From a filamentous cyanobacterium CCP3 (lineage in GTDB: Bacteria; Cyanobacteriota; Cyanobacteriia; Phormidesmidales; Phormidesmidaceae): DNA of 45,764 nucleotides. The position numbers and the translations under genes are program-made. This document shows, in pieces, positions 28,379 to 43,055 of this stretch; position 1 is the stretch's first letter, and the number at the start of each line of letters is the position of its first letter. The notes beneath the pieces are model-generated. The model did not search any database. It was given only the letters and a program-made list of their open reading frames with translations, and was not told the DNA's origin. The stretch spans positions 1 through 45,764 of the forward strand of contig PYGV01000011.1 of assembly GCA_003022385.1 (NCBI GenBank). The letters run 5' to 3'.

Positions 28379-29649
28379 CCCAACCTAAACCCGCTCTTCC
28401 TACCGTTGAACTGATTCCGCTCCACGGGGCGATCGTCGTCCAGCAACCCATAACCCTCGACGTGCTGGTGCGCATCACACCCCCGGCCGTTACCCTCAAG
28501 GCCGATCGCGTACCACTTAACCTGAGCCTGGCGATCGATCGCTCCGGTTCCATGCGGGGGCAAAAAATGCACTACGCCCGCGAGGCTGCTCGCTTTGCCG
28601 TGGAGAATCTGCTGCCCTGCGATCGCATCAGCATCGTCCTCTTCGACGATCGCATTGAAACCCTCGTCCCCAGCACCCTGGCTACTGACAAAAACACACT
28701 GCTAGAGAAGCTGCGCCACATCCACTCGCGAGGCTCCACTGCCCTTCATGCCGGTTGGGTCGAGGGCGGGATGCAGGTAAGCCAGTACCTCAACCCGGCT
28801 CAGCTCAACCGGGTGATTGTGCTCTCTGACGGGTTGGCCAATGTGGGGGAGACTAGACCGGATGCGATCTCAAGCGATGTTCATGGTCTGGCCCAGCGCG
28901 GTGTCAGCACCACTACATTGGGCATCGGCGACGACTACAGCGAAGACCTGCTTGCGGCGATGGCCCGCAGCGGTGACGGCAACTTTTTCCACATCGAGTC
29001 GGCTGATCAGCTGCCAACTATCTTTGAAACCGAGCTGTCGGGCTTGGCGGCTACCCTGGGTCAGCGGGTCAGCCTGGGCGTCAAGCCAGGCAGCGGCGTC
29101 ACGGTCATGGACGTGCTGAATGACTTTGAGCTGACCGACACCCGGCGCTATAAGCTGCCCAACCTGATGGTGGGGTCGCCGATTCAAGTGGTGGTGCGCT
29201 TGCAGGTGCCTGCCCTGGAGCGCAGCGGCGAACTCATGCAGGTTCGCCTGGCCTGGGATGCCCCGGAACAGCCCGGTCGGCAGGTGCTGCGGGCTGGGCT
29301 GGAGCTGCCCCTGGTAAGCCCCGAGCAGTTCAGCGATTTCCCAGCCAATGAATCGGTACAAGAGCAGGTGGCTCTGCTGATGGCGGCCCGCGCCCGCCGC
29401 GAAGCCATCTTATTCTCTGACCGGGGTGACTTTGCCTCGGCTCGGCAATCCCTCACCGACGCCCGCTTGGCCATGGCCGCTATGCCCCCCAGCGCCATGC
29501 TGATGGAGGAGCAGGCGGTACTGGAGGATTTAGAGGCTGACTACCAGAGTGGCAATGTGACCAGCGCCCGCAAGAAGGCGTTTTCGCAGTCCTTTAACCT
29601 GTCGCGATCGGGCAAGTCTAAGCCCCGACGCTCCATGGATTCTAAATAG
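28375..29649 (+). CDS. von Willebrand factor A domain protein
   Basis: The 424-aa protein has an N-terminal beta domain (about residues 1-45), a VWA domain with a complete MIDAS metal site (DRSGSM at about 55-60, the GSTAL threonine near 120, SDG near 150), and a C-terminal beta-sandwich plus helical tail. There is no signal peptide or membrane segment, so it is probably cytoplasmic, as in many cyanobacterial VWA proteins of the 'YfbK/chloride-channel-like' type. VWA domains mediate metal-dependent protein contacts, often with MoxR ATPases, but none is nearby. Coupling to the MerR-like regulator by a 4-nt overlap suggests a partnership; the C-terminal tail (QSFNLSRSGKSKPRRS) is basic and flexible. 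Confidence 0.85.
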   Translation: MTQPKPALPTVELIPLHGAIVVQQPITLDVLVRITPPAVTLKADRVPLNLSLAIDRSGSMRGQKMHYAREAARFAVENLLPCDRISIVLFDDRIETLVPSTLATDKNTLLEKLRHIHSRGSTALHAGWVEGGMQVSQYLNPAQLNRVIVLSDGLANVGETRPDAISSDVHGLAQRGVSTTTLGIGDDYSEDLLAAMARSGDGNFFHIESADQLPTIFETELSGLAATLGQRVSLGVKPGSGVTVMDVLNDFELTDTRRYKLPNLMVGSPIQVVVRLQVPALERSGELMQVRLAWDAPEQPGRQVLRAGLELPLVSPEQFSDFPANESVQEQVALLMAARARREAILFSDRGDFASARQSLTDARLAMAAMPPSAMLMEEQAVLEDLEADYQSGNVTSARKKAFSQSFNLSRSGKSKPRRSMDSK

Positions 29650-29664
29650 GCGACGGCACTAGGT

Positions 29665-29706
29665 GGTTGTATCGGCCTGGGTATAACTATTGCCAGGCCT
29701 ACAACC
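29665..29706. terminator. Strong hairpin after the VWA gene
   Basis: GGTTGTA (29665-29671) plus GGCCTGG (29674-29680) pair with CCAGGCC (29693-29699) plus TACAACC (29700-29706), giving 14 base pairs with a 2-nt bulge and a 12-nt loop. It starts 16 bases after the VWA stop. No T run follows, so it may be a Rho-independent variant, an mRNA-protecting hairpin or a relic of a repeat. Confidence 0.5.
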
Positions 29707-29772
29707 GCACCCAGCGGTACACCACCCACTGGGACGAGCTGGTTGTTATGCAATGAGCCCATACACCGGTCA

Positions 29773-30222
29773 TTATTTTGCTTCAGATGTTACTGTTTCA
29801 ATAACTAATGTAAGGCTGTTAATTTGTTCATTAATTTCATCAATCTGAGTATTTCGAAGTGGATTAATCTCTCGAATGCCTTTACCTATCGTTTCGCCAA
29901 CATTCGAGATTCCCTGGCTAGTACCGCCTACAACCCAACCCACGAGAGTAGTGACTGGGAAGGGTCTTAACCCTCGACCCACAGCATTCGTAGTTTCGCT
30001 GAGACTATGAAATACTGTCTCAGTGATTGCAGCGCCTGCCTCGGCACTTCTGTGTCTCTCAAGATAAGAGACTTTCTTTTTTTCAAAAGCACAGATGACG
30101 GCCCAGGCTTCATCAATGGTCATTTGGAGGCCTTTCCATACAACAGGCCTCACCTCTGGAGGTGTAACCATACCCTTCCGCTGCCGCTGAATCTCACGTT
30201 CTGCAATTTTTATATAATTCAT
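29773..30222 (-). CDS. Small protein of unknown function, 149 aa
   Basis: I prefer the ATG at 30222 (MNYIKIAERE) over a longer upstream start that overlaps the HNH nuclease gene. The protein has a basic N-terminal helix, a central helix-rich part (MTIDEAWAVICAFEKKK, SAEAGAAITETVFHSL), a Gly-rich stretch with moderately hydrophobic sequence (TTLVGWVVGGTSQGISNVGETIGKG split into two parts) and a C-terminal coiled coil (IDEINEQINSLTLVIETV). The Gly-rich part looks membrane-interacting or like a small pore-forming/holin-like segment, but this is speculation. It lies 41 bp after the HNH gene on the same strand, so the two may be co-transcribed. Confidence 0.55.
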   Translation of the reverse strand: MNYIKIAEREIQRQRKGMVTPPEVRPVVWKGLQMTIDEAWAVICAFEKKKVSYLERHRSAEAGAAITETVFHSLSETTNAVGRGLRPFPVTTLVGWVVGGTSQGISNVGETIGKGIREINPLRNTQIDEINEQINSLTLVIETVTSEAK

Positions 30223-30263
30223 GGGTTGAGTAGACCTGTTTTGGAGTCGTCGCTCCAGATAAA

Positions 30264-31427
30264 TCAATACCGCCATCCAACACAAAAGCCCTGGTTTGCA
30301 GCCAGGGAAATCAGTGGTTTTACCACCTGCTCATAAGCATTCCCTAGCCGTTGTACATCTAACAGTTCATCCATAGTGCTTACGCCTAAGTCACAGATAA
30401 AAGGTTCTATTTGTCTTTCCCATTTGCCTGCTGTTAGAGCTTCGCGAGTGGCCATTAGCCCAGAGTGTTGAAGGGTTACAAATTGGACAAAATACTCGTT
30501 GGAAGGAAGATTGTTGGATTTAGCTGAATTAACCTCTGGCAGTGTCGGCACCAAATTCCATAGCTGGTCGTGGGCTACGAACGACCAAGGCAGGTAATGG
30601 TCTAGGGAAAACCGGTTGGGATCAATCACCTGCTGAGAATAGATGCAGCGGAGCGGTTGGGAGCGCAGCACCAACTTCCAGTAGTCGGTCTGCTTGGACA
30701 GCGAATCACGCCGGGTGGGCATGAACAGCTTGTTAGCGATCGCGGGAGTACTCGGGTTCCGTTTTTGCATGTAAGTCAGCCATTCCCACGCGGCCCAACC
30801 GCGCACAATTCCGTAGTGCTCCTCTAGGTAGCTGGCCCAGGCCGGATGAATGATCACCGCCTGACAGCGGTTGTGCTGCTCTGAGTCAAATCGGTAGAGT
30901 GGTTTGTCGCTGTTGAAGCAAAGGTTTGCGATCGCAGGTATGGCGACCTCTAGCTGGTTCCCCTTGCCTCGACTAACTCCCGCCAGTTGGTCTTCTAGAA
31001 ATGTCGCAATCAGCCGGAAGGGAACGTAACGGCTGAGGTGAGACACAACATCACCTAAATCCTGAAGAGCGATCGCTCCTCTTAAAAGCGCTTTATCGGT
31101 ATCTCGAAAGCGGATGATGGGCTCAGTGATGATTAGCTCCAGGGCATCGAGCTTTTGAGCCACTTGGTCCTGGGTCCCAAAAGACAGTTTGAAGAACGTG
31201 TGGGGAAACCAGGCGTTAGCCAGCATCTCCACGATCAGGTCTTGAAAGCTGATCGGCTCTGTCGCCTCAAAGCGGCGACGCCTCATAATGTCGAGTAGTG
31301 ACAGAAAAAAGAGGTATTTGTAGGAGTTGGTGGTTTTGGCAAACAGACGGGTTAGTGCAGCAACATTGACCTTGTTTGAGTCAGGTAGCTGATGAACAGC
31401 CCCGGAAGGAAGTCGATTGTCATCCAT
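30264..31427 (-). CDS. HNH endonuclease family protein
   Basis: The 387-aa protein has a long N-terminal region of unknown fold (about residues 1-255) and a C-terminal HNH nuclease: FSLDHYLPWSFV, then DQLWNLVPTLPEVNSAKSNNLP, which gives the H-x(n)-N-x(n)-K/N metal-finger pattern with the usual 'D-H' catalytic pair. Proteins with this layout include stand-alone restriction endonucleases and phage-defence nucleases. No matching methyltransferase is adjacent, which argues against an ordinary restriction-modification pair. The start at 31427 (MDDNRLP) is the first ATG; a GTG six bases earlier is possible. A small XRE regulator lies immediately upstream on the same strand, 41 bp away. Confidence 0.75.
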   Translation of the reverse strand: MDDNRLPSGAVHQLPDSNKVNVAALTRLFAKTTNSYKYLFFLSLLDIMRRRRFEATEPISFQDLIVEMLANAWFPHTFFKLSFGTQDQVAQKLDALELIITEPIIRFRDTDKALLRGAIALQDLGDVVSHLSRYVPFRLIATFLEDQLAGVSRGKGNQLEVAIPAIANLCFNSDKPLYRFDSEQHNRCQAVIIHPAWASYLEEHYGIVRGWAAWEWLTYMQKRNPSTPAIANKLFMPTRRDSLSKQTDYWKLVLRSQPLRCIYSQQVIDPNRFSLDHYLPWSFVAHDQLWNLVPTLPEVNSAKSNNLPSNEYFVQFVTLQHSGLMATREALTAGKWERQIEPFICDLGVSTMDELLDVQRLGNAYEQVVKPLISLAANQGFCVGWRY

Positions 31428-31468
31428 GCCCACAGACTCACTACAGGGGTTGCCCCTAGGGTAGGCAG

Positions 31469-31699
31469 CTAAGAGCTGAAGTTATCGGGCAGTTCACTGA
31501 GCGTAACACCTAGGGCATCGCACAGCGCCTTCATCTGGGGTACCGTGAGGCTGGCCACGCTCATGCCTCGCTCCCAGTTGCTCACTGTCTTACCGCTAAC
31601 CCCCACAATCCGGGCCAAGGCTTCTTGAGAGAGGCCAGCTCGCTCTCTCAGATGCTTGAGCGTATGGGGGGCAGAATGGTCAAGCGGACTGGCGGGCAT
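31469..31699 (-). CDS. XRE-family helix-turn-helix regulator
   Basis: This 76-aa protein is essentially one Cro/CI-type domain: LKHLRERAGLSQEALARIVG, then SGKTVSNWERG and LTVPQMKALCDALGVTLSEL. Small regulators of this kind control the genes next to them, often in restriction (C protein) or toxin-antitoxin modules. It is the first gene of the unit that continues into the HNH nuclease. Its promoter region holds three TTTCTAGAAA-type sites, the likely operators, so autoregulation is probable. Confidence 0.8.
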   Translation of the reverse strand: MPASPLDHSAPHTLKHLRERAGLSQEALARIVGVSGKTVSNWERGMSVASLTVPQMKALCDALGVTLSELPDNFSS

Positions 31700-31709
31700 T
31701 AGAAAATAT

Positions 31710-31765
31710 TTTCTAGAAACAGGGTTGACAAACGGGCTTCTTTTCTAGAAACTGATTTCTAGTTA
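31710..31765. promoter_or_regulatory. Three TTTCTAGAAA-type operators and the XRE promoter
   Basis: Perfect palindromes TTTCTAGAAA lie at 31710-31719 and 31742-31751, and a degenerate copy TTTCTAGTTA at 31756-31765. Reading the minus strand, TTGTCA and TATTTT stand 17 bases apart with the first palindrome in the spacer, just before the XRE start codon. A repressor bound there would block its own promoter. Confidence 0.6.
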
Positions 31766-31848
31766 CGCCCTGAAACGGGCCAAAACACTGGAGAGGCACT
31801 GAAAAGTAGTGTCTCATCTCAATTTGCCCTGGCTCAAGTTATTACAGC

Positions 31849-32358
31849 ATGAATATCAGCCCATTCCATGTTTGGGCGATTGTGCGCTTTCTGCCCGACA
31901 TGCAGCGGGTGGTGGTCAATCGCTTTCGTCGCCGCTCGGATGCGGAAGAATGTCTACGGGTGCTGCGTCGCGCTGCTACTGGTCGCGACTACACGCTGCT
32001 CTACTATCCCCCCGGAGAGGAATCTACGTTTATGGTGCGCAAGGAATATAACAAGCTGGTCCGCGATCGCATCCCCGACATCTTGACCAGTCAGCAGGTC
32101 AAGTTTGGCGTTGAACCTATGACCCAGACCGAGTACTGCCAGGCACTGCGCCAAAAGCTGATCGAGGAAGCCCAGGAGGCGGCTGAAGCTGGTGAAGCCG
32201 CTCTGGTAACTGAACTCGCTGACCTGTGGGAGGTCATTGACGCTACTTTGGCGGCCTACGGCATTCAGCGGAACCAGGTGCTGGCCTGTCAGATGCAACG
32301 GCGCATGGATCGGGGAGCCTTTAGCCAAAGGCTACGACTACTGTGGACAGAAGGATGA
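31849..32358 (+). CDS. MazG-like / phosphoribosyl-ATP pyrophosphohydrolase-like protein
   Basis: The 169-aa protein has an N-terminal part of about 60 residues that looks like a small alpha-beta domain (VVVNRFRRRSDAEECLRVLRR). The C-terminal MazG-like module begins with KLVRDRIPDIL and continues with LRQKLIEEAQEAAEAG and ALVTELADLWEVIDATL, giving the E-x-x-E...E-x-x-D acidic metal sites of all-alpha NTP pyrophosphohydrolases. Such enzymes hydrolyse unwanted (d)NTPs to monophosphates. It is divergent from the XRE gene across the TTTCTAGAAA operators, so it may be under the same repressor, and it converges with the Argonaute gene after 61 bp. Its presence next to a cluster with dNMP-kinase- and dGTPase-like genes is suggestive. 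Confidence 0.75.
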   Translation: MNISPFHVWAIVRFLPDMQRVVVNRFRRRSDAEECLRVLRRAATGRDYTLLYYPPGEESTFMVRKEYNKLVRDRIPDILTSQQVKFGVEPMTQTEYCQALRQKLIEEAQEAAEAGEAALVTELADLWEVIDATLAAYGIQRNQVLACQMQRRMDRGAFSQRLRLLWTEG

Positions 32359-32419: not shown

Positions 32420-34639
32420 CTATAGCCAAAACTGTCGATCGCCTTCCAACAGACTGCTTGGGTAGATTCCTTTAAGCCGCAATCCAGCCACACGATCTGC
32501 CCCATATATTGGCATGGGTAAGCGAGGTGCTTTTAGAGCACCATGATGAAGCAATGTGAGTTTCAAAGTTGTTTCAACGACTTTCTCAATTGGTGCAGGC
32601 TGCCCTGCATTGTGTACTGTTAAACGGAGAGGCCTGGCTAAACCTACCCGCTCAGAGACCTGTGTCGTAATCAACACCGCCTCACGAGAAGACAACCGGA
32701 GTGCTAAACCCTGTGATGGTGCAGCCAAAGTCTTTTGTCTCAAGTTGTACAACCTGGGGATACCAGATTTTCGGCATTCCACTAAAATAAACTTGGCCCC
32801 GATCGCCTGTGCTCTTTCCAAAAGATTTGGAACTTCTCTACCACAAAAGCGTCCATCTCGGTAAATGAAAATAGTTTTGTCTTCTAACGTTGCCGGTAGC
32901 AAGCGTTCTAATAACCTCTGAGGGATTTCTTCGCCCTCTAATAAAGCGTCCTCTAAGAGGTAATTAATAAATTCCCCTTGCTTCCCATAAAGCCGCACAC
33001 TGGCACAGGCATTAAGCGTTCCAGCAAGTTTGACTTTTGTTGATCGCGAGATGTCTAACCCAATAAAGTAGTCGGCGATTTCCAACGGCTCCGCCAAAAT
33101 AAAAGGTAAATTCCCTAGCTTTGCCAAAATTCCTGGAACAACCTGGTTCAGAACTTGTCCATGCTCGACATCAGTTAACGTGCCATCATAAATAACCTGA
33201 CTGGCAATATTTCGGCGTAGGAGCAGCGAGTAGACCAGATGATACAAACTGCCACCGTCCTGGTCATCGGTGTCGCGATCGCTCTGCGGCAGAAAGGTTA
33301 ACACAATATCAACTGGAACCGTGATCAGCTTATTAACGGTTTTCTCCAGAGCAGCTCTTGCCTCAGCACCGCTAAGATTACTAATTGATAAAGCTTTACG
33401 ATCAATGATTTCACTCTCAAACCCATAGCGTTTAAGTCGCTTTTGAGCCGCTTCCAAAAAAGCATTCACGCTACCATCGCATAACTTAAGTGCAGCAATC
33501 CGGATTATGCCAGGTTGAAAATTGGTATGACGATGATAAACTCCGCCGTTTGATAGCCCCTGTAAGACACGTCCTCGAACACCTATAACCCCTTTGCCAA
33601 ACAGCAGTGGGGTTTGGTCTACAGGGGTCACTGGTTGCCAAAAGAGATCAGGGTGCTCTGAGCTATTCAAGCTTCGTCTAATTGCAAAACCATATGGCAT
33701 TAGCACATCAGCTGCTTGTGCTTTGAAATTTGTTAGTAACTGTTGCCGCTCAGTATTAGGAATTTTGGTGAATCGTAAAAACTGCCCATAGTCAAATCCA
33801 AATTGCCCTGCTGTCTCAGCCGTAATTGAGGGACGCAGAGCAGAGAGTGGGTAGTGGAAGAGTTTTTTCCCTTTGCCAAACCGGATTGCAACCACAAACT
33901 CGCCATCGGGTGCGGTTTCGATAAAGTGTCGTGTAGCATGTCCTGCTGCAAGTTGTAAAAGGCGATCGCGATGCTCTGCAATCACACCAATAATCTGGAC
34001 AATACTTCCATTACTGCCTAGATCAAAATCCTGAACAGGCAAGCCCACCAGTAAATCCTCTGGACTTTCTTGAGCCACGTTGTTGGTGTAGAAATCCGCT
34101 AGACTTCCTGAATATGCAATTTCAGTCCGAACAGTTAATGACAATGCTGCACAATCTTCTCCCTGAAGCTCGATCGTTTCTGCCCAAAACTTAATCTTGC
34201 GGTTCACTGCTAATCCTCCAACCGATGTAACAAGGATTGGTCTGAAGGGTTGCCTTATTCGCAAAATCTGAAACGCGACTTTGGACAGAACAGATGTTGA
34301 AGCGAGCGCAGCACTATCTTCTTGAAGCTGGAGAGGTTGATCGCACAAATCTGGAACGTCTTTCTGAAGTGCTAAAAGAGCTATTTGGCACTGAGATATG
34401 TTCAGTTGTGGTTGTTGTATCGGAGTGAGTACCCACAGTCGATACTCGTGCCAAACGGCTACAGCTTGTTCCAATTTTCGGGAGAGGTGAAAACTCAAGC
34501 GATTGCCAGTCTCCTGATCAATCTCAGGGGTCACCGTAAAATTGGCAAGATTAGCTTGAGTGATGGACAGTGGAAACACTTCACTCAAAAAGACAAGTTC
34601 TTGTGAGGGAACAGCAGTAGTAGCAGTAATAACAGTCAT
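32420..34639 (-). CDS. Long prokaryotic Argonaute with apparently active PIWI domain
   Basis: The 739-aa protein is the size of characterised cyanobacterial long Argonautes. The MID region carries QVVPGILAKLGNLPFIL, typical of the guide 5'-end pocket. The PIWI domain shows the catalytic tetrad: Asp in FIGLDIS (about 529), Glu in LLEGEEIP (about 569), Asp in IYRDGRF (about 595) and Asp in YGADRVAG (about 715). This predicts a nuclease-active, long-A type enzyme that uses short guides to cut invading DNA. The start is the ATG at 34639, with AGGAG eight bases upstream, overlapping the stop of the Cas4-like gene (ATGA); an earlier frame start is not used. The N-terminal and PAZ-like regions (about 1-350) are less conserved and I cannot judge PAZ completeness. 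Confidence 0.9.
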   Translation of the reverse strand: MTVITATTAVPSQELVFLSEVFPLSITQANLANFTVTPEIDQETGNRLSFHLSRKLEQAVAVWHEYRLWVLTPIQQPQLNISQCQIALLALQKDVPDLCDQPLQLQEDSAALASTSVLSKVAFQILRIRQPFRPILVTSVGGLAVNRKIKFWAETIELQGEDCAALSLTVRTEIAYSGSLADFYTNNVAQESPEDLLVGLPVQDFDLGSNGSIVQIIGVIAEHRDRLLQLAAGHATRHFIETAPDGEFVVAIRFGKGKKLFHYPLSALRPSITAETAGQFGFDYGQFLRFTKIPNTERQQLLTNFKAQAADVLMPYGFAIRRSLNSSEHPDLFWQPVTPVDQTPLLFGKGVIGVRGRVLQGLSNGGVYHRHTNFQPGIIRIAALKLCDGSVNAFLEAAQKRLKRYGFESEIIDRKALSISNLSGAEARAALEKTVNKLITVPVDIVLTFLPQSDRDTDDQDGGSLYHLVYSLLLRRNIASQVIYDGTLTDVEHGQVLNQVVPGILAKLGNLPFILAEPLEIADYFIGLDISRSTKVKLAGTLNACASVRLYGKQGEFINYLLEDALLEGEEIPQRLLERLLPATLEDKTIFIYRDGRFCGREVPNLLERAQAIGAKFILVECRKSGIPRLYNLRQKTLAAPSQGLALRLSSREAVLITTQVSERVGLARPLRLTVHNAGQPAPIEKVVETTLKLTLLHHGALKAPRLPMPIYGADRVAGLRLKGIYPSSLLEGDRQFWL

Positions 34640-35457
34640 GCATAGATCTCCTGTACAGCAAATTGACAAACTGAATTGAACTGGCAATATTGGCAGCGAA
34701 AGCCAGGATTGGGCGGGAAAATACGATCAAACTCCGCAGGATTTTTACGGTACTTTTTCTTCTCTATCTCATGTCGTTGAGCCAAGCGTGCTAGCTCTAT
34801 ACGAATGGCATTCAGTTGACTTGTGGTTGCCGTGATTGGTTCTGACCACTTACAGAGTTCAAGGTTGTAGAATGAGGCGATCACTTGCTGACGGGGGAAA
34901 AGGTAGTTTGCAGCCAGTAGATAAACAAATGCCTGCCGTTCATCAAAATCAGAATGCCCCGTCTTCAAATCTAGGATGTGTAGCGTGCCATCTGGTTCAA
35001 GCAGGATGCAGTCGATCGCAGCGAATAAATTAAAGGTTATGTTTTCGTAGTAGAGCTTAATCGGTTCTGGGAAGCCCTCATCACCTCGACTTAAGCTAAA
35101 AATTCGCTTCTTGAGAAGAATGGGATGCTCATAGTATTGGGTTAAAATCTGGTTGAGTCGTTGCTGCGCTTCAGCAGACTGTTGATTGAGCTGCAGAATC
35201 TCAAAAACCTTCGCAACACCATCTGTATCTCTGAGTCGCTGAGGATTCAAGTGAAATTCATAAATCCCCTGTTGAGCTAATAGACCAATAGTCTGCGGAA
35301 CTGTATCTTGTGCCAAGATTGCCGCAACATCCGGTTCTCGCTTCCGAACTTTGGCATAGCCCCGCTTCATGTCACAGTGCCAATGCTCCTGCCCAACTGC
35401 CGGAGCAAATAGTGCCCAAAGGTTATAGCTTGCAAAGGGTAGCCACCTTTTCCCCAT
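34636..35457 (-). CDS. Cas4/RecB-like PD-(D/E)XK nuclease with probable Fe-S cluster, Argonaute partner
   Basis: The 273-aa protein carries AAIDCILLEPDG and HILDLKTG, giving Asp149, Asp163 and Lys165 as the PD-(D/E)XK active site, and the RecB/Cas4 motif QAFVYLLA just after. The C-terminus has CQYCQFNSVC, three cysteines that together with an N-terminal cysteine (EHWHCDM, about residue 28) match the four-cysteine Fe-S site of Cas4/AddB-type nucleases. Cas4-like nucleases recur beside prokaryotic Argonautes, where they are thought to help make guides or trim DNA ends. Here it is the first gene of a two-gene operon and its stop overlaps the Argonaute start. It is divergent from the eight-gene cluster, 174 bp away. 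Confidence 0.8.
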   Translation of the reverse strand: MGKRWLPFASYNLWALFAPAVGQEHWHCDMKRGYAKVRKREPDVAAILAQDTVPQTIGLLAQQGIYEFHLNPQRLRDTDGVAKVFEILQLNQQSAEAQQRLNQILTQYYEHPILLKKRIFSLSRGDEGFPEPIKLYYENITFNLFAAIDCILLEPDGTLHILDLKTGHSDFDERQAFVYLLAANYLFPRQQVIASFYNLELCKWSEPITATTSQLNAIRIELARLAQRHEIEKKKYRKNPAEFDRIFPPNPGFRCQYCQFNSVCQFAVQEIYA

Positions 35458-35631: not shown

Positions 35632-36078
35632 ATGATTCCACCCTTTAACCAAGATGGATTATTACCACCTGGGATCCATACCACAGCTTCCTGGCAGGAG
35701 TTTGCCCATCGTTTTGGGCAAACTCCACACCGACGGAACCTGCTCTCAGGAATGAAAGCGGCTCTGTTAGGACTGCACAAGGCTGGCTGTCAGGTTGTCT
35801 ACGTCGATGGCAGTTTTGTAACGGCGAAGGAGCACCCCAATGACTTTGATATTTGCTGGGATATTGCGGGAGTCAATCCCGATTTACTAGATCCGTTGCT
35901 TCTCAAGCTTGACGATGGTCGAGTTGCTCAAAAAGTGAAGTATTTCGGTGAATTTTTCCCAGCACAGTTCCCTGAAGGAGTAAGCGGCAAAACGTTTTTA
36001 GAGTTTTTTCAAACTGATAAGGCAACTGGAAACCCCAAAGGCATTGTTGCCTTAACCCTGTGGGAGATATGGTCATGA
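35632..36078 (+). CDS. Small nucleotidyltransferase-like protein (DUF6932-like)
   Basis: The 148-aa protein contains VYVDGSFVTAKEHPNDFDICWD, the G-S...D-x-D signature of a minimal nucleotidyltransferase. Here the two acidic residues fall in NDFDICWD, after an unusually long insertion. Such small proteins resemble the MNT antitoxins and DUF6932 proteins, but catalysis is unproven. It opens the eight-gene plus-strand run and its stop overlaps the next gene's ATG (36075-36078), so it is translated with the XRE-ImmA protein. The pair looks like a regulatory or toxin-antitoxin-like module in front of the rest. The upstream start is at the first ATG after a weak site; there is no strong Shine-Dalgarno. 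Confidence 0.65.
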   Translation: MIPPFNQDGLLPPGIHTTASWQEFAHRFGQTPHRRNLLSGMKAALLGLHKAGCQVVYVDGSFVTAKEHPNDFDICWDIAGVNPDLLDPLLLKLDDGRVAQKVKYFGEFFPAQFPEGVSGKTFLEFFQTDKATGNPKGIVALTLWEIWS

Positions 36079-37538
36079 TTAAGAATGAGCGGCAATACCG
36101 CATTACTAAAGCTCAAATTGAAAAGTTCTCAAATGCCTTCGCTCAACTGTCGGCTTCAACTCAGCAGGATCAGTCTGTCCATCCCATCTTGCTGAAAGCC
36201 GAGAGGGAGTCGGTGGAGTCTCAGCTTGCGGAACTGCGAATCCAAGTTGAAGAGTATGAGGCATTGAAGGAAGGACAACAAGCTGTACTGGAATTAGATT
36301 CACTTGACGCATTACCGCGAGCCTTAATTAAGGCTCGGATTGCTGCCGGATTGAATCAGAAGGATTTAGCTGAGCGACTAGGGATAAAGGAGCAGCAGGT
36401 TCAACGTTATGAGGATACAGAGTACGCTTCTGCTAGCTTCACACGGCTGGTAGAAGTTAGTCGTGCGATCGGTGTTCAAGTACGCGAAGAAGTTTTGCTG
36501 CCTAGAGTTTCGCCCGCAGATTTGTTGAGCCGATTGAGCCAGGCTGGAATTGATCGCGACCTTATTCTCAACCGTTTCTTTCCAAACTTGAGTGCTGAGA
36601 CTTCACACGATGAAGATGAAGTCTCTACTAATGCCCTGGTACTTCGTGCCGCAACTGCTTTGAAACGAGTGTTTGGGTGGTCATTGGCTGATCTATTTAG
36701 CTCTAGACCGCTTCAGCTTGATTTAACTCCCCTTGGAGCTGTTCACTTCAAAGTTAATGCAAAAGCAAATCAGAAACGATTAAGTGCGTACACGGTTTAT
36801 GCTCATTTCCTGGCATTGCTTGTACTAGAAGCCACAGCAGATTTACCAGCGAAGCCGATCCCAACCGATCCAAAACAAGTTCGTGAAGCCATCTGCTCAA
36901 CGTATGGTGAACTAACGTTTTCAAATGCTTTACGGTATGTCTGGAGTTTGGGTATACCTGTTCTTCCACTGAGGGATGCTGGAGCATTTCATGGTGCATT
37001 CTGGCGCGTCAACGGACGAAACGTAATTGTTCTGAAGCAGCGCACTAGATCCTCGGCTCGCTGGCTGCTCGATCTTCTCCATGAACTTTGGCATGCTGCT
37101 CAAGAACCAGAGCGACCTGAGCGAACTGTGGTTGAAGAAGGGGATATTGCACAGGAACGGCAAGACTCACCTGAAGAAAAGACGGCTACAAGATTTGGCG
37201 AACACATTCTACTCAACGGTCGCCAAAAGGAACTGGTTGAGATGTGTACCAAAGAAGCAAAAGGTAGTATTGAGCGACTCAAGAATGTCGTGTTTAAGGT
37301 CGCTACGAGGGAGAAAGTTTTAGTTGGGGCTCTAGCAGATCACATGGCTTATCGGCTGTCACTCCAAGGTGAAAATTGGTGGGGTGCTGCAACCAATCTA
37401 CAAACGGAAGATATTGAGCCGTGGCAGATTGCTCGTGACGTACTCCTAGAGAAGATCAATTTTGAAGTTTTAAATGATGTGGATCAAACACTCTTGATAA
37501 GAGCTTTGTCGGATGACTTGCCTCAGCAGGAATTTTAG
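36075..37538 (+). CDS. XRE regulator fused to ImmA/IrrE-type metallopeptidase
   Basis: The 487-aa protein starts at the ATG at 36075, with GGGAG eight bases upstream. Its order is: an N-terminal coiled coil (to about residue 70), a Cro/CI helix-turn-helix (KARIAAGLNQKDLAERLG, KEQQVQRYED; about 85-130), a linker region of unknown fold, and a zinc metallopeptidase with LLHELWHAAQ (HExxH at about 336) followed by a downstream glutamate-containing TATRFGEHILL helix. ImmA/IrrE proteins cleave repressors upon a signal, for example DNA damage. With its own HTH, this one may both repress and de-repress the adjacent genes. It overlaps the nucleotidyltransferase-like gene and is followed 21 bp later by the zinc-ribbon gene. 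Confidence 0.8.
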   Translation: MIKNERQYRITKAQIEKFSNAFAQLSASTQQDQSVHPILLKAERESVESQLAELRIQVEEYEALKEGQQAVLELDSLDALPRALIKARIAAGLNQKDLAERLGIKEQQVQRYEDTEYASASFTRLVEVSRAIGVQVREEVLLPRVSPADLLSRLSQAGIDRDLILNRFFPNLSAETSHDEDEVSTNALVLRAATALKRVFGWSLADLFSSRPLQLDLTPLGAVHFKVNAKANQKRLSAYTVYAHFLALLVLEATADLPAKPIPTDPKQVREAICSTYGELTFSNALRYVWSLGIPVLPLRDAGAFHGAFWRVNGRNVIVLKQRTRSSARWLLDLLHELWHAAQEPERPERTVVEEGDIAQERQDSPEEKTATRFGEHILLNGRQKELVEMCTKEAKGSIERLKNVVFKVATREKVLVGALADHMAYRLSLQGENWWGAATNLQTEDIEPWQIARDVLLEKINFEVLNDVDQTLLIRALSDDLPQQEF

Positions 37539-37559
37539 AAGTTATGGAGGTTAAACGTA

Positions 37560-38189
37560 ATGTCGGATGATTGGAATGTTGAGGAGGAGTTAAAACCACT
37601 CAAACTAAAATGTACTAGCTCAGACTGCAAAAATGGGCATCACTCGTATAGACCGACACCTAAACAAAAAGCAGCAAATACAGTAGGCCAGTGTCGATCC
37701 TGTAATGAGATGGCTCCCTTTGAGTGGGAGCGGTTACATAAGCTTGATCCCGAAGACCTAGACTATACGATCGCTGCCTTGAAGAATGAACTCATTCGCC
37801 AACATTACTGGACAAATGAGATTCCCCAGAAGGTCGAGAATTATGCCCGCCGTAAGGGTGTAAAAGGAATGGAGGGGGCAGTAGAAAAGCGGATTCGCAA
37901 CTCTATGAGTCCACCCGCCAATGATTTTGATGGGCGTCAGACGCCTGTCGAGGATTCAGCCAAGGTTAATGCAGTTCACTTTGCTCAGCACGCCACCGCT
38001 TCTTGTTGCCGTAAATGTATGGAGTATTGGCATGGCATTCCTCGATATCACTCACTTACAGAAGATGAGATATCGTATTTGTCCAGGTTAGGAATGAGAT
38101 TCATCAGTGAACGATTTCCGTTACTAACGGAAACAGGAGAGAAAGTCTCACCCATTCGTAAGGCTGGCAAATCAAACACTAAAGGTTAA
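37560..38189 (+). CDS. Cys-rich zinc-binding protein (DUF4186-like C-terminus)
   Basis: The 209-aa protein has two cysteine groups. The N-terminal part, KCTSSDCKNGHH then CRSCNE, is a zinc ribbon of the C-x4-C...C-x2-C kind. The C-terminal part, HATASCCRKCMEYWHGI, combines paired Cys with His. That second motif resembles the DUF4186 family, a call I make from memory and hold loosely. A basic helical region (PQKVENYARRKGVKG) lies between. No enzyme motif is seen; RNA/DNA binding, or acting as a metal-binding partner of the radical SAM enzyme, is possible. It is preceded by GGAGG near 37545 and lies 36 bp before the radical SAM gene. It belongs to the same plus-strand operon. Confidence 0.65.
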   Translation: MSDDWNVEEELKPLKLKCTSSDCKNGHHSYRPTPKQKAANTVGQCRSCNEMAPFEWERLHKLDPEDLDYTIAALKNELIRQHYWTNEIPQKVENYARRKGVKGMEGAVEKRIRNSMSPPANDFDGRQTPVEDSAKVNAVHFAQHATASCCRKCMEYWHGIPRYHSLTEDEISYLSRLGMRFISERFPLLTETGEKVSPIRKAGKSNTKG

Positions 38190-38224
38190 AAGTAAACGAA
38201 GTAAAAGCAAACGGAGTAAAAGCT

Positions 38225-39238
38225 GTGGTAGCGATTAATACTGAGGTTCTCTCTTCACGTTATCGAGAAGCATCTGTTGATTTGCAGAATAAGCGATTGC
38301 TGATCACCAATTTCCATAATACACAGCAGGAAAACGATTTAAAAGAGGCTCCTAATTGCAAAGGATTTGGGCGTATTCGGCACTTCAGACGATTGAATAA
38401 CAATGGCTGGCCCTCTAACCCGTTACCGATAGATCCAGCTTGTAAAGCACTAGGTCTACAAGCAACCAACATGATTCGAGCACAAGTTTTTCAGAGTGCA
38501 GCTTGTAATTGGCGATGTTGGTACTGCTTCGTTCCATTTGAACTGCTGTCCGCAAATCGTAAATATTCCGAGTGGATGAGTCCATCGCAATTGGTCGATC
38601 TTTATCTAGACCAACCCGATCCTCCTTCAATGATTGATTTAACAGGAGGACAACCCGACTTAATTCCAGAGTGGGTTCCCTGGATGATGACTGAACTGAA
38701 AGAGCGGGGATTAGAGCACCAAATTTACCTCTGGTCCGACGACAACTTGAGCAACGATTACTTTTGGCAGTTTTTATCAGACTCAGATCTTGAGCTTATT
38801 GCAGCTTATCCAAACTATGGTCGGGTCTGTTGCTTTAAAGGATTTAATTCTGAGTCTTTTGCATTTAATACTCGTGCTGAACCTGATCTCTTCAATCGAC
38901 AGTTTCAACTAATAAAGCGATTGCTGGAGTTAGGAATTGACATCTATGCTTACGCAACATTCACAACACCGGCAGTCTCAGAAATTGCTGCAGATATGAC
39001 TCGCTTTGTCGATCGACTTCAGGAAATAGATTACAACCTTCCACTCCGAACGGTTCCATTAGAAATTCAAATGTTTACCCCAATCAAGGAGAGGCTAAAT
39101 GATGGAATTCAAGTGGCATTGAAGAATCAGTACCTTGCGATTGAAGCTTGGAAAACAGAATTGGAAAGTCGGTACTCCAGTATAGAGCGGTCACAATCAA
39201 TCACAGATGTAACTTTACACACGAAGCAATTTCTATGA
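38225..39238 (+). CDS. Radical SAM enzyme
   Basis: The 337-aa protein starts at GTG 38225, with GGAG eight bases upstream. It has the cluster motif CNWRCWYC (Cys94, Cys98, Cys101; C-x3-C-x2-C) that binds a [4Fe-4S] cluster and S-adenosylmethionine, and DLTGGQPDLIPEW near 138-150 in the place of the usual GGEP. The barrel region continues to about residue 290 and there is no SPASM-type second cysteine cluster at the C-terminus (a lone VCCF pair sits near 200). The overall look is of the PFL-activase/QueE-like short class rather than viperin. The substrate is unknown. It sits between a Cys-rich protein and a DPPW methyltransferase, with the latter's start overlapping its stop, so a shared nucleotide or tRNA/DNA substrate is plausible. 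Confidence 0.85.
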   Translation: MVAINTEVLSSRYREASVDLQNKRLLITNFHNTQQENDLKEAPNCKGFGRIRHFRRLNNNGWPSNPLPIDPACKALGLQATNMIRAQVFQSAACNWRCWYCFVPFELLSANRKYSEWMSPSQLVDLYLDQPDPPSMIDLTGGQPDLIPEWVPWMMTELKERGLEHQIYLWSDDNLSNDYFWQFLSDSDLELIAAYPNYGRVCCFKGFNSESFAFNTRAEPDLFNRQFQLIKRLLELGIDIYAYATFTTPAVSEIAADMTRFVDRLQEIDYNLPLRTVPLEIQMFTPIKERLNDGIQVALKNQYLAIEAWKTELESRYSSIERSQSITDVTLHTKQFL

Positions 39239-40536
39239 CAATTACTGAAATCGAATCACATGCGTTTGAGCAGTCTGTTGAACAATGGATTTTTGATGCA
39301 GTTGGAAATGGTGCCACTACGTTTGAGCAACTGATCAAGTTACTTCCTAGCGTCGATCCAATTATTGCCTTCAAAGCTCTACAAAAAGTTCAGTCTTCGC
39401 TGCCAGCTCTCAAGAATAACTCATGTACATTGGTTAACTCAGCATTGTGGAAGCAATCAAAGCCTACTCCCACTCACCATCAAAAATCACTTCCACCGCC
39501 TCATCCCCTTGATTACGATTGGAGATTTACCGATTCGACCGTTGAATATTTATTACAAAAATGTGCGGAAGCAACTCGCTCTCATGATACAATTGCACTA
39601 CTTGGAACCCCTAGTCTTCTATGGGTAGGAACCGATCCAGCCTATCAACGAAGCACGGTGTTACTTGAGGCAAACACAGTGATGACAAATTGCTTGTCTA
39701 GCACGGTCTTAGGTTCCCGAATAGTAGAGTGCGACCTACTAAGAGATATACTACCTAATCTATCTGTTGATGCTGTTGTAATGGATCCCCCCTGGTATCC
39801 AGAATACATTCAATCATTTCTTTGGGACGCATGCCAGTTTTGCAAGATGAACGGACACATCTTAATCAGCCTTCCACCAATTGGCACTAGACCGGGGATT
39901 GAGAGGGAGTGGCAAGAAACTTTGACTTGGGCGAACCAACTAGGACTTCAGCTTATCCATTTAGAAGAACTGTCTCTGTCTTACCTGACTCCTTTATTCG
40001 AGCGTAATGTTTTTAGAGTTGCAGGGATTCATTGTGTTCCGCAGAATTGGAGACGAGGTAATTTAGCTGTCTTCACTCGAAGATCTTCTACTAACGTTCC
40101 CCGACCTATTGTTGCTTTATCCGAGAAGGGATGGTTGGAAGTAAATCTTTCTAGTGTCAGAATTCGAGTTCGCCCTTGGAACAGTTCGGAGTTTGCCGAT
40201 CCAAGTCTAGTTTCAGTTATTCCTGGTGATGTGTTGACCTCCGTTAGCCGCCGAGATCCTCGACGTCAGCTTGCAGATGTTTGGACTTCTGGAAATAGAA
40301 TTTTTTCTTGCCTAGGAAGGGGTATACTATGGCATATTTTGGATGCTATATCGAGAGATTATCCACCCCATAGTGCTGTAGAAGCTTTTATAGGGCGGGC
40401 GCTGCAACCAAGAGAAATTGGTCTTGTTTCTAATGCAATAGAGCAAGTCCTCGATATTGTTAATTTGGAACGAAAGGAGAACTTACTCTTTGGAGACCAC
40501 TGGAGCAGTACAAACTTCACTTTTGCCGCTAGCTAG
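39235..40536 (+). CDS. DPPW-motif SAM-dependent methyltransferase
   Basis: The 433-aa protein starts at ATG 39235, overlapping the radical SAM stop by four bases. Residues 1-100 look like a winged-helix or helical N-terminal domain. The methyltransferase domain contains IALLGTPSLLW (a motif I variant) near 120 and AVVMDPPWYP (motif IV, DPPW at 184-187), as in MT-A70 and some N6-adenine methylases. DPPW specifically recalls adenine-N6 methylases acting on RNA or DNA. The last 150 residues (after CVPQNWRRGNLAVF) are a separate domain of unknown fold. It is preceded by and overlapped with neighbours, so it is part of the operon. The usual GxG of motif I is replaced by GTP, an oddity to check structurally. 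Confidence 0.75.
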   Translation: MTITEIESHAFEQSVEQWIFDAVGNGATTFEQLIKLLPSVDPIIAFKALQKVQSSLPALKNNSCTLVNSALWKQSKPTPTHHQKSLPPPHPLDYDWRFTDSTVEYLLQKCAEATRSHDTIALLGTPSLLWVGTDPAYQRSTVLLEANTVMTNCLSSTVLGSRIVECDLLRDILPNLSVDAVVMDPPWYPEYIQSFLWDACQFCKMNGHILISLPPIGTRPGIEREWQETLTWANQLGLQLIHLEELSLSYLTPLFERNVFRVAGIHCVPQNWRRGNLAVFTRRSSTNVPRPIVALSEKGWLEVNLSSVRIRVRPWNSSEFADPSLVSVIPGDVLTSVSRRDPRRQLADVWTSGNRIFSCLGRGILWHILDAISRDYPPHSAVEAFIGRALQPREIGLVSNAIEQVLDIVNLERKENLLFGDHWSSTNFTFAAS

Positions 40537-41041
40537 TAATTTGCAGCTAGCCGTGAGGGATGATCCATTTTGGGAGGATTATCTATCCCCCCTGATTGAA
40601 TCGGCACCTCTGCCGTTTTCACTTCATCTTGCAATTTTTGTGGAGCCATATCTTCAGTTCGTTTTAGAGGGAAAAAAAACTATAGAGTCGCGTTTCTCAA
40701 CGCGTCGCTTTGCTCCTTACGATCAAGTTGAAAAGGGGGATGTAATTCTTCTAAAACGGTCCTCTGGTCCCATTCTTGGGATTTGTCAAGTAGCTTATCC
40801 ATGGTTTTACCAACTTGAGCCAGACTCGTGGGCAAGCATTCAAAAAGATTTTGCTGAGGCTTTGTGTGCGCAAGATCCTGAGTTTTGGAAACAGCGCGAA
40901 TCTGCTTCTTACGCAACTTTAATTCGTATTCAACGTGTAAAATCTATTGCTCCAATTAAATATGTGAAACGCGATCGTAGAGGATGGGTAGTTCTACAAG
41001 ATAGGGTAAAGCAGTTAAAACTTAATCTTGAAGTCGTATGA
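40490..41041 (+). CDS. ASCH-domain protein
   Basis: No ATG is available within the frame, so the start must be non-standard. I choose TTG at 40490 because AAAGGAGA precedes it by about ten bases (40474-40480); another TTG at 40457 is possible. It overlaps the methyltransferase by 47 bases. The 183-aa product has an ASCH domain: EPYLQFVLEGKKTIESRFS, then EKGDVILLKRSSGPILGICQV. The GKKTIESR signature is conserved in this PUA-like fold, which binds RNA or modified bases, and some ASCH proteins are nucleases or deaminase-like hydrolases. Its stop overlaps the kinase start by four bases. An ASCH domain between a base methyltransferase and nucleotide enzymes fits a modified-nucleotide pathway. Confidence 0.75.
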   Translation: METTGAVQTSLLPLASNLQLAVRDDPFWEDYLSPLIESAPLPFSLHLAIFVEPYLQFVLEGKKTIESRFSTRRFAPYDQVEKGDVILLKRSSGPILGICQVAYPWFYQLEPDSWASIQKDFAEALCAQDPEFWKQRESASYATLIRIQRVKSIAPIKYVKRDRRGWVVLQDRVKQLKLNLEVV

Positions 41042-41589
41042 AGCCAGCTATTCTTACTTTTTCTGGTCCTATTGCCAGTGGTAAGTCAGCACTCTCAAAT
41101 AAATTAGCTCAAACCTTTCACTGGTCTCGCGTTAGTTTCGGGGACTATGTCCGTTCCGTTGCCGATGCAAGGAAAATCCCCAAAACACGAGAAGTTTTGC
41201 AGGCAATCGGTACTGAACTTGTGACAAGTGATGTAGAGGGATTCTGTAACGCCGTACTAGAACAGGCTAGTTGGCAGCAGGGACAACCTCTAATAATTGA
41301 TGGTATTCGTCATGTAGGTGTTCTTAAAACTCTACAGAAACTAGTTGATCCCATGAAACTGTACCTTATCTTTATTGCTATCGATGAGTTTGTACAAGCT
41401 ACCCGCTTAATTGAGAGAGGAGCAAGCGAACTACTAGTACTTCAAGCACTGAAGCTAGATGTAACAGAGCAGCAGGTAGACACTCACTTAAAAGATATAG
41501 CTGACTTTGTAGTTGACGGTAGCCGTTCACTTGAGGAGGTATCCCAGGACATTACAAACTGGCTCCAATCTCAATGTGTTAGAAATTAA
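41038..41589 (+). CDS. P-loop (deoxy)nucleoside monophosphate kinase-like protein
   Basis: The 183-aa protein has Walker A GPIASGKS near the N-terminus and VLQAIGTELV near residue 60. The latter recalls the R-x-x-LQ-x-x-GTE element of phage T4-type deoxynucleoside monophosphate kinases and some dephospho-CoA kinase relatives. The third hallmark is a strand ending in LIIDGIRHVG. Phosphorylating a (modified) dNMP is the likely reaction; a nucleoside or small-molecule kinase remains possible. The start ATG overlaps the ASCH stop (ATGA). The gene lies 29 bp before the dGTPase-like gene, a pairing expected where one nucleotide is made and another removed. Confidence 0.75.
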   Translation: MKPAILTFSGPIASGKSALSNKLAQTFHWSRVSFGDYVRSVADARKIPKTREVLQAIGTELVTSDVEGFCNAVLEQASWQQGQPLIIDGIRHVGVLKTLQKLVDPMKLYLIFIAIDEFVQATRLIERGASELLVLQALKLDVTEQQVDTHLKDIADFVVDGSRSLEEVSQDITNWLQSQCVRN

Positions 41590-41618
41590 TGAGCATATTT
41601 CTTTAGCAGAGGTTATCT

Positions 41619-43055
41619 ATGCCTTGTCAAACAATGCGGTGGGATCAACTTCTCTGTGATGAGCGTCAAGGCCATGAACAACATCCTGGAGAGGGCCAAC
41701 GAAACCGTAATCAATTTGAGCGTGATTTTGACCGAATTATTTTTTCAGAGGCATTCAGACGACTTAAGGACAAAACTCAAGTTTTTCCAGTTACCGATAA
41801 TGACCATGTTCATAATCGGTTGACTCATAGCTTGGAAGTCTCATGCATTGGACGATCCTTAGGCAGACTTGTAGGAGTCAAGATTATTGAAAAGTATAAA
41901 GATACGGTTCTCAAAAAACTTATTGAAGAAGGTTTAAATGAAGCGAGCTTTGGTGCACTTGTTCAAGCAGCTTGCCTCGCTCATGACATAGGAAATCCTC
42001 CTTTTGGTCATTCTGGAGAAAACGCTATTCAATCCTGGTTCTATTCTGAATTAGGTCAGCAGCATTTGAAAGCAATGAGTGATGGTGAAAAGGAGGATTT
42101 AGAATGGTTTGAGGGAAATGCTCAAGGATTCAGAATTTTAACAAGATCTGAACGGCAGTGTGGAAGAAAAAGTTTGCAACTAACTTTCGGCACCCTTGCA
42201 ACTTTCACTAAATATCCTAGAGAATCACTTATCAATGATAAGAAATCATTAAAGGCTAAAGAGAGAGAAAGCGTTAAATATAACAATCATGAGCTTAACA
42301 AATATGGCTTTTTTCAATCCGAAAAAGAAGTATTTGAAGAAGTGGCTAGGAAAACAGGTTTGATTTCACTGAGTAGCGATGGCTCAGCATGGTGGTGTAG
42401 GCATCCACTTGCCTTTCTTGTTGAAGCCGCCGATGATATATGTTATCGAATTATGGATCTTGAAGATGGTTTTAATATGGGTTATATAGACTATCAAACG
42501 ACCAAAAGACTGCTGATTGATGTTGCGGGAGAAGAATACGGGAATGATTTGATTGATGGTAATAGTTTATCTGAAAACCGAGAAAACATAAGATTTCTAC
42601 GTGGGAAAGCTATCAATAAATTGATTGATATAGCTGAAAAAGCATTTAATGATAACGAAGAAGGATTACTAACTGGTGAGTTTGATGAATCATTGCTGGA
42701 TCAAAACAAGGAAATAAAAGACAAAATCAAAAATATAAAAAATGAGATCAAAGATAAAGTATACAGTTGTCAAGAAGTTCTTTCAATTGAGATAGCAGGC
42801 TATAACGTTATTTCAACACTAATGGAAGAGTTCATTTCATCAGTAAACAATGAACTTCCTATAAGAGACCAAAGAAACAAAAAGAGCGCCAAAGTAAAAC
42901 AGATACTACCTGGTAAAGCACCGAAAGGGCAGAGGTGTAATGTGAATTATTTGAACACCTTGAGAGTATTAGACTATCTTTCAGGTATGACCGATTCTTA
43001 TGCAGTAACTCTGTTTAGGCAAATTCAGGGAATTTCTTTGTCTGGAAATAGGTGA
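41619..43055 (+). CDS. dGTPase-like HD-domain triphosphohydrolase
   Basis: The 478-aa protein has AGAGG six bases before the ATG. The family marks are RIIFSEAFRRLKDKTQVF, NRLTHSLEVS (His70), ACLAHDIGNPPFGH (His122-Asp123), then the dGTPase-type FEGNAQGFRIL near 165 and AADDICYRIMDLEDG near 272, completing the H...HD...D metal site. dGTPases hydrolyse dGTP to deoxyguanosine and tripolyphosphate; stand-alone dGTPases can act as anti-phage proteins by depleting dNTPs. The gene is markedly more AT-rich than the rest of the window, especially 42.2-42.9 kb, with a Lys/Asn/Glu-rich helical insertion (about residues 320-420). It is the last gene of the operon; no clear terminator follows. Confidence 0.85.
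   Translation: MPCQTMRWDQLLCDERQGHEQHPGEGQRNRNQFERDFDRIIFSEAFRRLKDKTQVFPVTDNDHVHNRLTHSLEVSCIGRSLGRLVGVKIIEKYKDTVLKKLIEEGLNEASFGALVQAACLAHDIGNPPFGHSGENAIQSWFYSELGQQHLKAMSDGEKEDLEWFEGNAQGFRILTRSERQCGRKSLQLTFGTLATFTKYPRESLINDKKSLKAKERESVKYNNHELNKYGFFQSEKEVFEEVARKTGLISLSSDGSAWWCRHPLAFLVEAADDICYRIMDLEDGFNMGYIDYQTTKRLLIDVAGEEYGNDLIDGNSLSENRENIRFLRGKAINKLIDIAEKAFNDNEEGLLTGEFDESLLDQNKEIKDKIKNIKNEIKDKVYSCQEVLSIEIAGYNVISTLMEEFISSVNNELPIRDQRNKKSAKVKQILPGKAPKGQRCNVNYLNTLRVLDYLSGMTDSYAVTLFRQIQGISLSGNR

Follow-up and report, generated by a model that had tools for sequence, protein, structure and literature searches.

A 45,764-nucleotide stretch of DNA from the filamentous cyanobacterium CCP3 (contig PYGV01000011.1; hereafter the window) holds eight consecutive open reading frames (ORFs), named a to H, which all lie on the plus strand and together cover positions 35632-43055. 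The first seven, a to G, recur as one cassette across phyla, and this recurrence is not due to chance.

Gene a (35632-36078) encodes a DUF6932 protein (PF22014, E 4.7e-38) with a nucleotidyltransferase-like motif, GSF...DxD. Gene b (36075-37538) is a likely regulator that joins an XRE helix-turn-helix (HTH; HTH_3, E 2.4e-8) to an HExxH-containing part of the IrrE/ImmA type. It is followed by c (37560-38189), a DUF4186 protein (PF13811, E 2.9e-22) with an N-terminal Cys/His cluster and a CCxxC motif, and by D (38225-39238), a radical S-adenosylmethionine (SAM) enzyme that carries a CX3CX2C motif and scores 29.4 bits against PF04055, where the curated cut-off is 29.5. Gene E (39235-40536) combines a winged helix, a class I SAM-binding fold and a DPPWY motif, and appears BpsA-like by its AlphaFold2 (AF2) model and fold match. 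The last two members of the set are F (40490-41041), with an ASCH (PUA-like) domain (PF04266, E 3.8e-4; 21.6 bits against a cut-off of 21.2), and G (41038-41589), a P-loop nucleotide-kinase-like protein (AAA_17, E 4.4e-7). Behind them stands H (41619-43055), a deoxyguanosine triphosphate (dGTP) triphosphohydrolase that exceeds the cut-off of its model (NF002205, 477.3 against 439 bits). Domain scans bear out the radical SAM, DPPW, ASCH, P-loop kinase and dGTPase calls that had been made in an earlier, sequence-only reading of this DNA.

That reading had also described eight plus-strand genes with four overlaps of 4-47 nucleotides (nt) and short gaps elsewhere, and the layout holds. Genes a and b overlap by 4 nt at an ATGA when b is started at ATG 36075, the start found in its relatives. 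Gaps of 21 nt and 35 nt follow b and c, respectively; D and E again share an ATGA (4 nt, with E from ATG 39235); F, read from TTG 40490, overlaps E by 47 nt and is in turn overlapped by G by 4 nt. H follows the stop codon of G after 29 nt, and no gap exceeds 35 nt. As had also been read, the operon is divergent from an Argonaute operon, a long class II prokaryotic Argonaute (pAgo) with a Cas4-like nuclease (32420-35457). Promoter and terminator scans gave no excess over shuffled sequences. In the window, RNA searches found no tRNA, and no RNA family reached its gathering score.

Recurrence and chromosomal setting

How widely does this gene set recur? An alignment of six D sequences was scanned against the genomes of 84,980 species and gave 87 relatives, of which the best 80 were kept; the scan depends on exact short peptides and is not a census. 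With the window and five plasmids, the 80 contigs make up 86 D loci, whose ORFs of at least 40 codons were searched with profiles from the six first loci. Gene counts are based on the 65 of 86 loci with at least 4.5 kb before and at least 4 kb behind D. A gene is counted as present there if it lies within 6.5 kb of D, and the cassette counts leave out L001, L002 and L008-L011. Motif counts and the tree use sequences that cover at least 70% of a profile.

All seven genes are present in 43 of the 65 loci, and in 38 they keep the same order on one strand. G is found near D in 63 loci and F in 62; b and c both reach 59, while the counts for E and a are 57 and 48. The sequence-only reading had proposed a check of co-occurrence in other genomes, and the genes do travel together: c, F and G all lie near D in 57/65 loci. 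Several members are also fused within one ORF, namely E-F in L049 and L072, F-G in L021 and L023, c-F in L025, and b-G in L058, where HTH, Peptidase_M78 and AAA_17/18 parts are combined. Pairwise distances among the seven families correlate at 0.59-0.89, figures that ignore shared descent.

The 86 loci carry 15 phylum labels, one of them archaeal, although genome bins may contain stray contigs. On a tree of D (85 rows, quick search, with support from the Shimodaira-Hasegawa-like approximate likelihood ratio test only) the phylum label changes 26 times, compared with a minimum of 14 and a shuffled mean of 54.2. Thus, the D family clusters by phylum yet also crosses phyla. Absence of E changes 10 times on this tree, the DCD add-on described below 6 times and H 4 times.

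Reduced or rearranged loci occur as well. L090 has D by itself and L057 only b, c and D; L034 and L074 have neither F nor E, the upstream DNA of L074 being short. No a-c genes stand beside D in L035, L047, L072, L088 and L089, and in L089 they lie about 6 kb further along. In L019, from an archaeal bin, E (10975-13149) is split by another ORF that by eye is transposase-like. The missing c genes were not found in a relaxed search of the loci.

A plasmid protein search with E returned 11 records. Five of the cassette loci (L003-L007) were examined, and all keep one order of a to G; they lie on plasmids from Tolypothrix, Aulosira, Nostoc, Roseovarius and Rhizobium, with E present though unannotated in L006. 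Conjugation is predicted for six of the seven plasmid records that contain D. An 18,401-base insertion containing these genes is reported in a section of a Tolypothrix comparison (PMC9679502), and Tn7-like genes (TniQ, TnsC and a Mu-type transposase) adjoin L013. Among 386 genomes of the window's phylum, D occurs in the window's own genome, with one weak partial match elsewhere (G094, E 5.7e-6). No viral homologue of D was found in the viral contigs or phages searched.

Within the window's genus, D is found in 2 of 26 genomes (its own and G413), and a flank gene at 28375-29649 is present in 21 of 26. The DNA behind this flank gene was compared in six same-genus genomes that lack D (L106-L111). 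The blastn alignments of L108 and L109 with the window both run as far as 32352 and then diverge, which places the left edge of the variable segment at 32352-32353. Beyond this junction L108 has DndB (E 2e-158), DndC (5e-199), PbeA (6e-261) and, matched less well, PbeC (1e-21); L109 has PbeA and PbeC matches. L106 diverges straight after the flank gene and has HmaA and HmaB there. In the window, the slot holds the long pAgo and the Cas4-like nuclease, followed by the cassette. The site therefore resembles a variable hotspot for defence genes, with Dnd/Pbe or Hma genes in congeners, and the cassette is very likely part of its cargo. This same-genus comparison is the strongest evidence for a role in defence, and it rests on genomic context.

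The cargo site at genus level (window 28375-32358) comprises the conserved flank gene, an HNH gene and a small gene, and cargo varies from 32352. The pAgo pair was considered as a member of the cassette and rejected, as it adjoins the cassette only in four close relatives (the window, L012, L013 and L014). Up to two flanking ORFs per side of 180-900 amino acids were collected with seven near-duplicate loci skipped (129 upstream, 122 downstream). A hand-picked 78 upstream and 77 downstream proteins, without a control set, were scanned against PADLOC; among the matching families listed (25 out of 134 in one scan and 25 out of 39 in the other) are AbiE, a pAgo-associated nuclease, MADS, TnsC and HNH. 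By eye, HNH-like genes recur as neighbours at 5 loci, two groups of tyrosine recombinases at 5 and 4 loci, and a resolvase and type IV secretion genes at 4 loci each.

Core proteins

The GSF...DxD motif is found in 59 of 60 members of the gene a family, and a matches the PADLOC candidate PDC-M63A (E 7.5e-13). HExxH is present in 73 of 75 members of the b family; the window's b has no Peptidase_M78 match, whereas the homologous fusion in L058 exceeds the Peptidase_M78 cut-off. Gene c has CCxxC in all 77 sequences, together with invariant Cys and His residues. Its AF2 model has a predicted local distance difference test (pLDDT) score of 92.7, and comparison with the PDB gave no fold match, with a best Foldseek E of 1.5 and a best VIA Z of 2.6, a family outside the listing being possible. 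Short stand-alone DUF4186 proteins were noted by eye immediately after a DnaB-like or Dam-like gene on two phage contigs (L099:5995-6348 and L100:5995-6348).

The CX3CX2C cluster motif of D is conserved in 85/85 sequences. With the viperin equivalog NF038283, whose cut-off is 180 bits, D reaches only 19.5; it matches the PADLOC pVip model with E 3.3e-6 over 76 residues. In F, a K[TS]x[ED]xR motif is found in 62 of 73 ASCH proteins, and there is a weak match to the archaeal uncharacterised proteins 2z0t and 1s04. G has a Walker A motif in 75 of 77 sequences. Over its full length its profile matches archaeal AdkA-like proteins (3lw7, E 1.8e-11, positions 5-174), with adenylate kinases next. G also matches the phage deoxynucleoside monophosphate (dNMP) kinase family phrog_139 at E 3.5e-5 over 91 residues. 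At two actinobacterial loci, RES-domain genes adjoin a kinase-family match (L088:8129-8809 and L089:8257-8922). Searched by sequence, the PDB yielded nothing closely related to D, E, F or c.

What kind of enzyme is E? The sequence-only reading took it simply as a DPPW base methylase. E does have a DPPW motif in a class I methyltransferase fold, with PF10237 below its cut-off (19.1 against 23.2 bits), but the fold is closest to BpsA, a branched-chain polyamine synthase. The AF2 model (pLDDT 92.5) aligns with 6j27 in VIA-align at Z 22.2 (root-mean-square deviation 3.3 over 277 residues); the BpsA group ranks first, and the first row outside it has Z 17.2. Like BpsA, E has a winged helix and a Rossmann fold. 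DPPWY is found in 61 of 64 E sequences and in 47/47 of the alignment for the folded E, and a C-terminal S-R-R and W-T-S-G-N stretch is conserved. As far as the cited section goes, BpsA requires a GDDD motif, which positions decarboxylated SAM (PMC12979288). GDDD is absent from E, which has no Asp at positions 125 and 126 (47/47) or at 124 (45 of 47 shown), the equivalence of this site with motif I of BpsA being inferred from topology. E, which carries DPPWY instead, may therefore be described as a predicted BpsA-shaped transferase.

Homologues of E also occur elsewhere, aligning only from E residue 85 onward at 27% identity. One precedes a PUA-like/metallophosphoesterase gene on an Agrobacterium plasmid (L010), and others precede annotated metallophosphoesterases (L008 and L009). 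Two viral contigs (L094:5992-8360 and L095:742-3110) hold a two-gene unit of an E homologue and a phosphoesterase-like protein, which in L094 stands behind an apparent P4-type primase. PADLOC has no model for the first gene of this pair, and the L094 pair has no near match among E. coli complete genomes. Near the E homologue of L010 lie a P-loop kinase-adenylosuccinate synthetase fusion and a DUF7002 gene (11202-13485), and in L009 a similar place is taken by an annotated adenylosuccinate synthetase. Compared with viral models, E reaches a model-normalised TM-score of at most 0.32 among the 50 rows listed.

Accessory genes

The dGTPase is an accessory gene and not part of the core. H is found in 5 of the 86 D loci (4 of the 65), namely the window and four cyanobacterial loci, and on the opposite strand in L005. 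In the window, L012, L014 and L016 it shares the strand of G and follows it closely, at a distance of 36-42 nt when measured from where the G profile match ends. Within the genus, the two genomes (of 26) in which H was found are those with D; the G413 copy is divided over two contigs, and a stop codon is reported for one of its two pieces. H matches the PADLOC dGTPase model at 7.1e-76 and falls below the cut-off of the anti-phage dGTPase model NF041026 (202.5 against 400 bits).

A second type of add-on belongs to the DCD family. Such a gene lies between c and D in five loci (L038, L060, L068, L070 and L083) and, by clustering, nearby in L033 and L025, making seven loci in total; Pfam was run on L068 and L083. 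The proteins align with dCTP deaminases, whose catalytic Glu is E138 in E. coli Dcd. In all six examined (L025 not among them) Arg or Lys stands in place of this Glu, so the DCD-like proteins are probably not deaminases. A hydrophobic C-terminal tail was noted by eye in L060:9203-9973, L068:8836-9606, L070:9209-9973, L083:9241-9981, L038:9236-9970 and L033:12968-13771. Judged from these sequence features, it is possible that they are membrane nucleotide sensors. The idea that these add-ons deplete dCTP was rejected given the missing Glu, and for the same reason general depletion of deoxynucleoside triphosphates (dNTPs) is not supported.

Further add-ons include an inserted MazG-like gene (L072), a deoxynucleoside kinase (L025) and its relative (L076), and, in L047, an NrdR-like ATP-cone gene that precedes D by roughly 0.9 kb. 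A DUF763-type gene stands behind G in L007, L061 and L078 (Pfam run on L007). Apart from DUF763, the add-ons concern deoxynucleotides; HNH-like and mobility genes also recur near the cassette. The nucleotide theme of the sequence-only reading thus survives in that several accessory genes concern deoxynucleotides, but removal of canonical dGTP as part of the system is not supported, with H in 4/65 loci.

Possible function and relation to known systems

The best explanation at hand, a tentative one with nearly an even chance of being right, is that the cassette is a mobile, inducible anti-invader (anti-phage) system that makes a modified nucleotide; the step from genomic context to chemistry is inferred throughout. 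Repression of the operon would fall to the XRE-IrrE protein b, possibly assisted by the nucleotidyltransferase-like a, and infection or damage would lead to derepression through the peptidase part of b. The radical SAM enzyme D and the kinase G would then produce a modified (deoxy)nucleotide, which E might tailor with the help of the DUF4186 protein c. The PUA-like ASCH protein F would bind or process the modified base, and the product would poison or mark the nucleic acid of the invader. The dGTPase, DCD-like, MazG-like and deoxynucleoside kinase genes would be optional extras, serving to adjust dNTP pools or as nucleotide sensors. A nucleotide or base is suggested as the substrate because a nucleotide-type kinase lies beside D in 63/65 loci, together with a PUA-like domain and dNTP-related add-ons. 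Inducible expression is suggested by the XRE-IrrE regulator, which is once fused to the kinase, and a repressor-type regulator would fit a costly or toxic product.

A bolder form of this proposal, possible but on balance doubtful, is that the cassette represents a new type of immunity. D, the kinase, DUF4186 and the BpsA-like transferase would make a novel modified nucleotide that stops invaders, with the XRE-IrrE protease as sensor, dGTPase, DCD-membrane, MazG and kinase genes as exchangeable add-ons, and the viral pair of E homologue and phosphoesterase as a minimal cousin. If true, this would be a widespread defence built on non-viperin radical SAM chemistry, possibly with a new nucleotide or base, and it would give a function to DUF4186 (the family of E. 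coli YneG), DUF6932 and the BpsA-like family. With Dnd/Pbe genes in congeners and the cassette here occupying one chromosomal slot, the claim is directly testable.

Several observations weigh against an anti-invader system of this kind. Gene a is absent in 17 of the 65 loci, E in 8, and b and c in 6 each, and the core shows no nuclease or obvious killer. The DNA of L107, L110 and L111 aligns with the window over the flank gene only and is followed by chromosomal genes that look ordinary by eye. Among the flank matches listed, no PADLOC family occurs in more than 3/78 upstream or 2/77 downstream neighbours. Viperin and QueE models match D weakly, 11 of 73 ASCH proteins are without a K-x-E-x-R type motif, the DCD-like add-ons lack the deaminase Glu (6/6 examined), and G may phosphorylate something else. 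Moreover, the candidate pair PDC-M63AB, which includes a member of the DUF6932-type family, was inactive in defence in one native-host study, as far as the cited section goes (PMC12409345).

Could the cassette instead modify bases of DNA or RNA directly, as self- or target-marking? This is the main rival, though an unlikely one. Nucleic acid would be the substrate of E and D, the mark would be read by F and DUF4186, and G would phosphorylate a base side chain, as phage 5-hydroxymethyldeoxyuridine DNA kinases do. The N-terminal winged helix and DPPWY of E point this way, as do the E homologues beside a PUA-like/phosphoesterase gene (L010) and beside a phosphoesterase-like protein on two viral contigs. 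ASCH domains are, in the section cited, predicted binders of modified bases that recur with AAA_17, sometimes with XRE, in (PIN)-GNAT-EVE operons (PMC7641849). However, the core holds no restriction nuclease, a repressor-controlled operon would be unusual for self-marking, and the dNTP-related add-ons are left unexplained. It is improbable that a modified nucleotide made by D and G serves as a signal that activates a receptor, for example the membrane-tailed DCD-like protein. DCD-family genes in seven loci, in five of which the gene separates c from D within the cassette, and the replaced Glu with a hydrophobic C-terminus in 6/6 examined would suit such a receptor, but the neighbour clusters of other loci contain no DCD-family gene and the membrane segment was assigned by eye.

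A mobile cofactor, natural-product or salvage pathway unrelated to defence likewise has little probability. Radical SAM, methyltransferase-like and kinase genes are common to many pathways, whereas the patchy occurrence on plasmids and in a hotspot, with a repressor-type regulator, argues against it, as does the presence of a single transporter-like cluster (permease-like by eye, 2 loci) among the recurrent neighbour clusters listed, although no search was aimed at transporters. The sequence-only reading treated all eight genes as a single unit that makes a modified (d)NTP or nucleic acid and removes canonical dGTP; in this view, the dGTPase would drain the dGTP pool during production of a modified G analogue. 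H does stand close behind G on the same strand in the window, L012, L014 and L016, and occurs in exactly the two congeners with D. However, seven genes recur and H does not: it is absent in 61/65 loci and lies on the opposite strand in L005, and other loci carry unrelated add-ons, which makes this reading very improbable indeed.

The sequence-only reading could not match the set to a named system, and PADLOC-DB 2023 holds none that fits the core a-G. There, c and F have no match at E 0.1, b (its HTH part), D, E and G match weakly, and a matches the candidate named above. In the open-access PubMed Central (PMC) literature searched, the cassette is not described as a system, the Tolypothrix paper listing the genes within an insertion; DUF6932 is unmentioned there, and DUF4186 occurs in 4 papers and DUF763 in one.

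Prokaryotic viperins (pVip) with kinases resemble the cassette in that a radical SAM enzyme adjoins a nucleotide-kinase-like protein, but D falls short of the viperin cut-off (19.5 against 180 bits) and the cassette has c, E and F in addition. Defence by nucleotide depletion through a dGTPase was reportedly described by Tal et al. in 2022. The window and four cyanobacterial loci share a dGTPase with it, whereas H lies outside the core and below the anti-phage model cut-off. The pairs of an E homologue and a phosphoesterase-like protein (L008, L009, L010, L094 and L095) are likewise plasmid or viral-contig cargo with a downstream partner; in contrast to the cassette, no radical SAM gene was seen with them, and the partner is a phosphoesterase and not a kinase. 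The nearest described operons found are (PIN)-GNAT-EVE operons with ASCH and AAA_17. No GNAT, PIN or EVE was identified in the cassette, and the cited section does not name a radical SAM, DUF4186 or BpsA-like gene for these operons (PMC7641849). According to the same section, what they share with the cassette is an ASCH protein and an AAA_17 P-loop protein, sometimes with XRE, together with a predicted modified-base chemistry and a toxin-antitoxin or defence role (PMC7641849).

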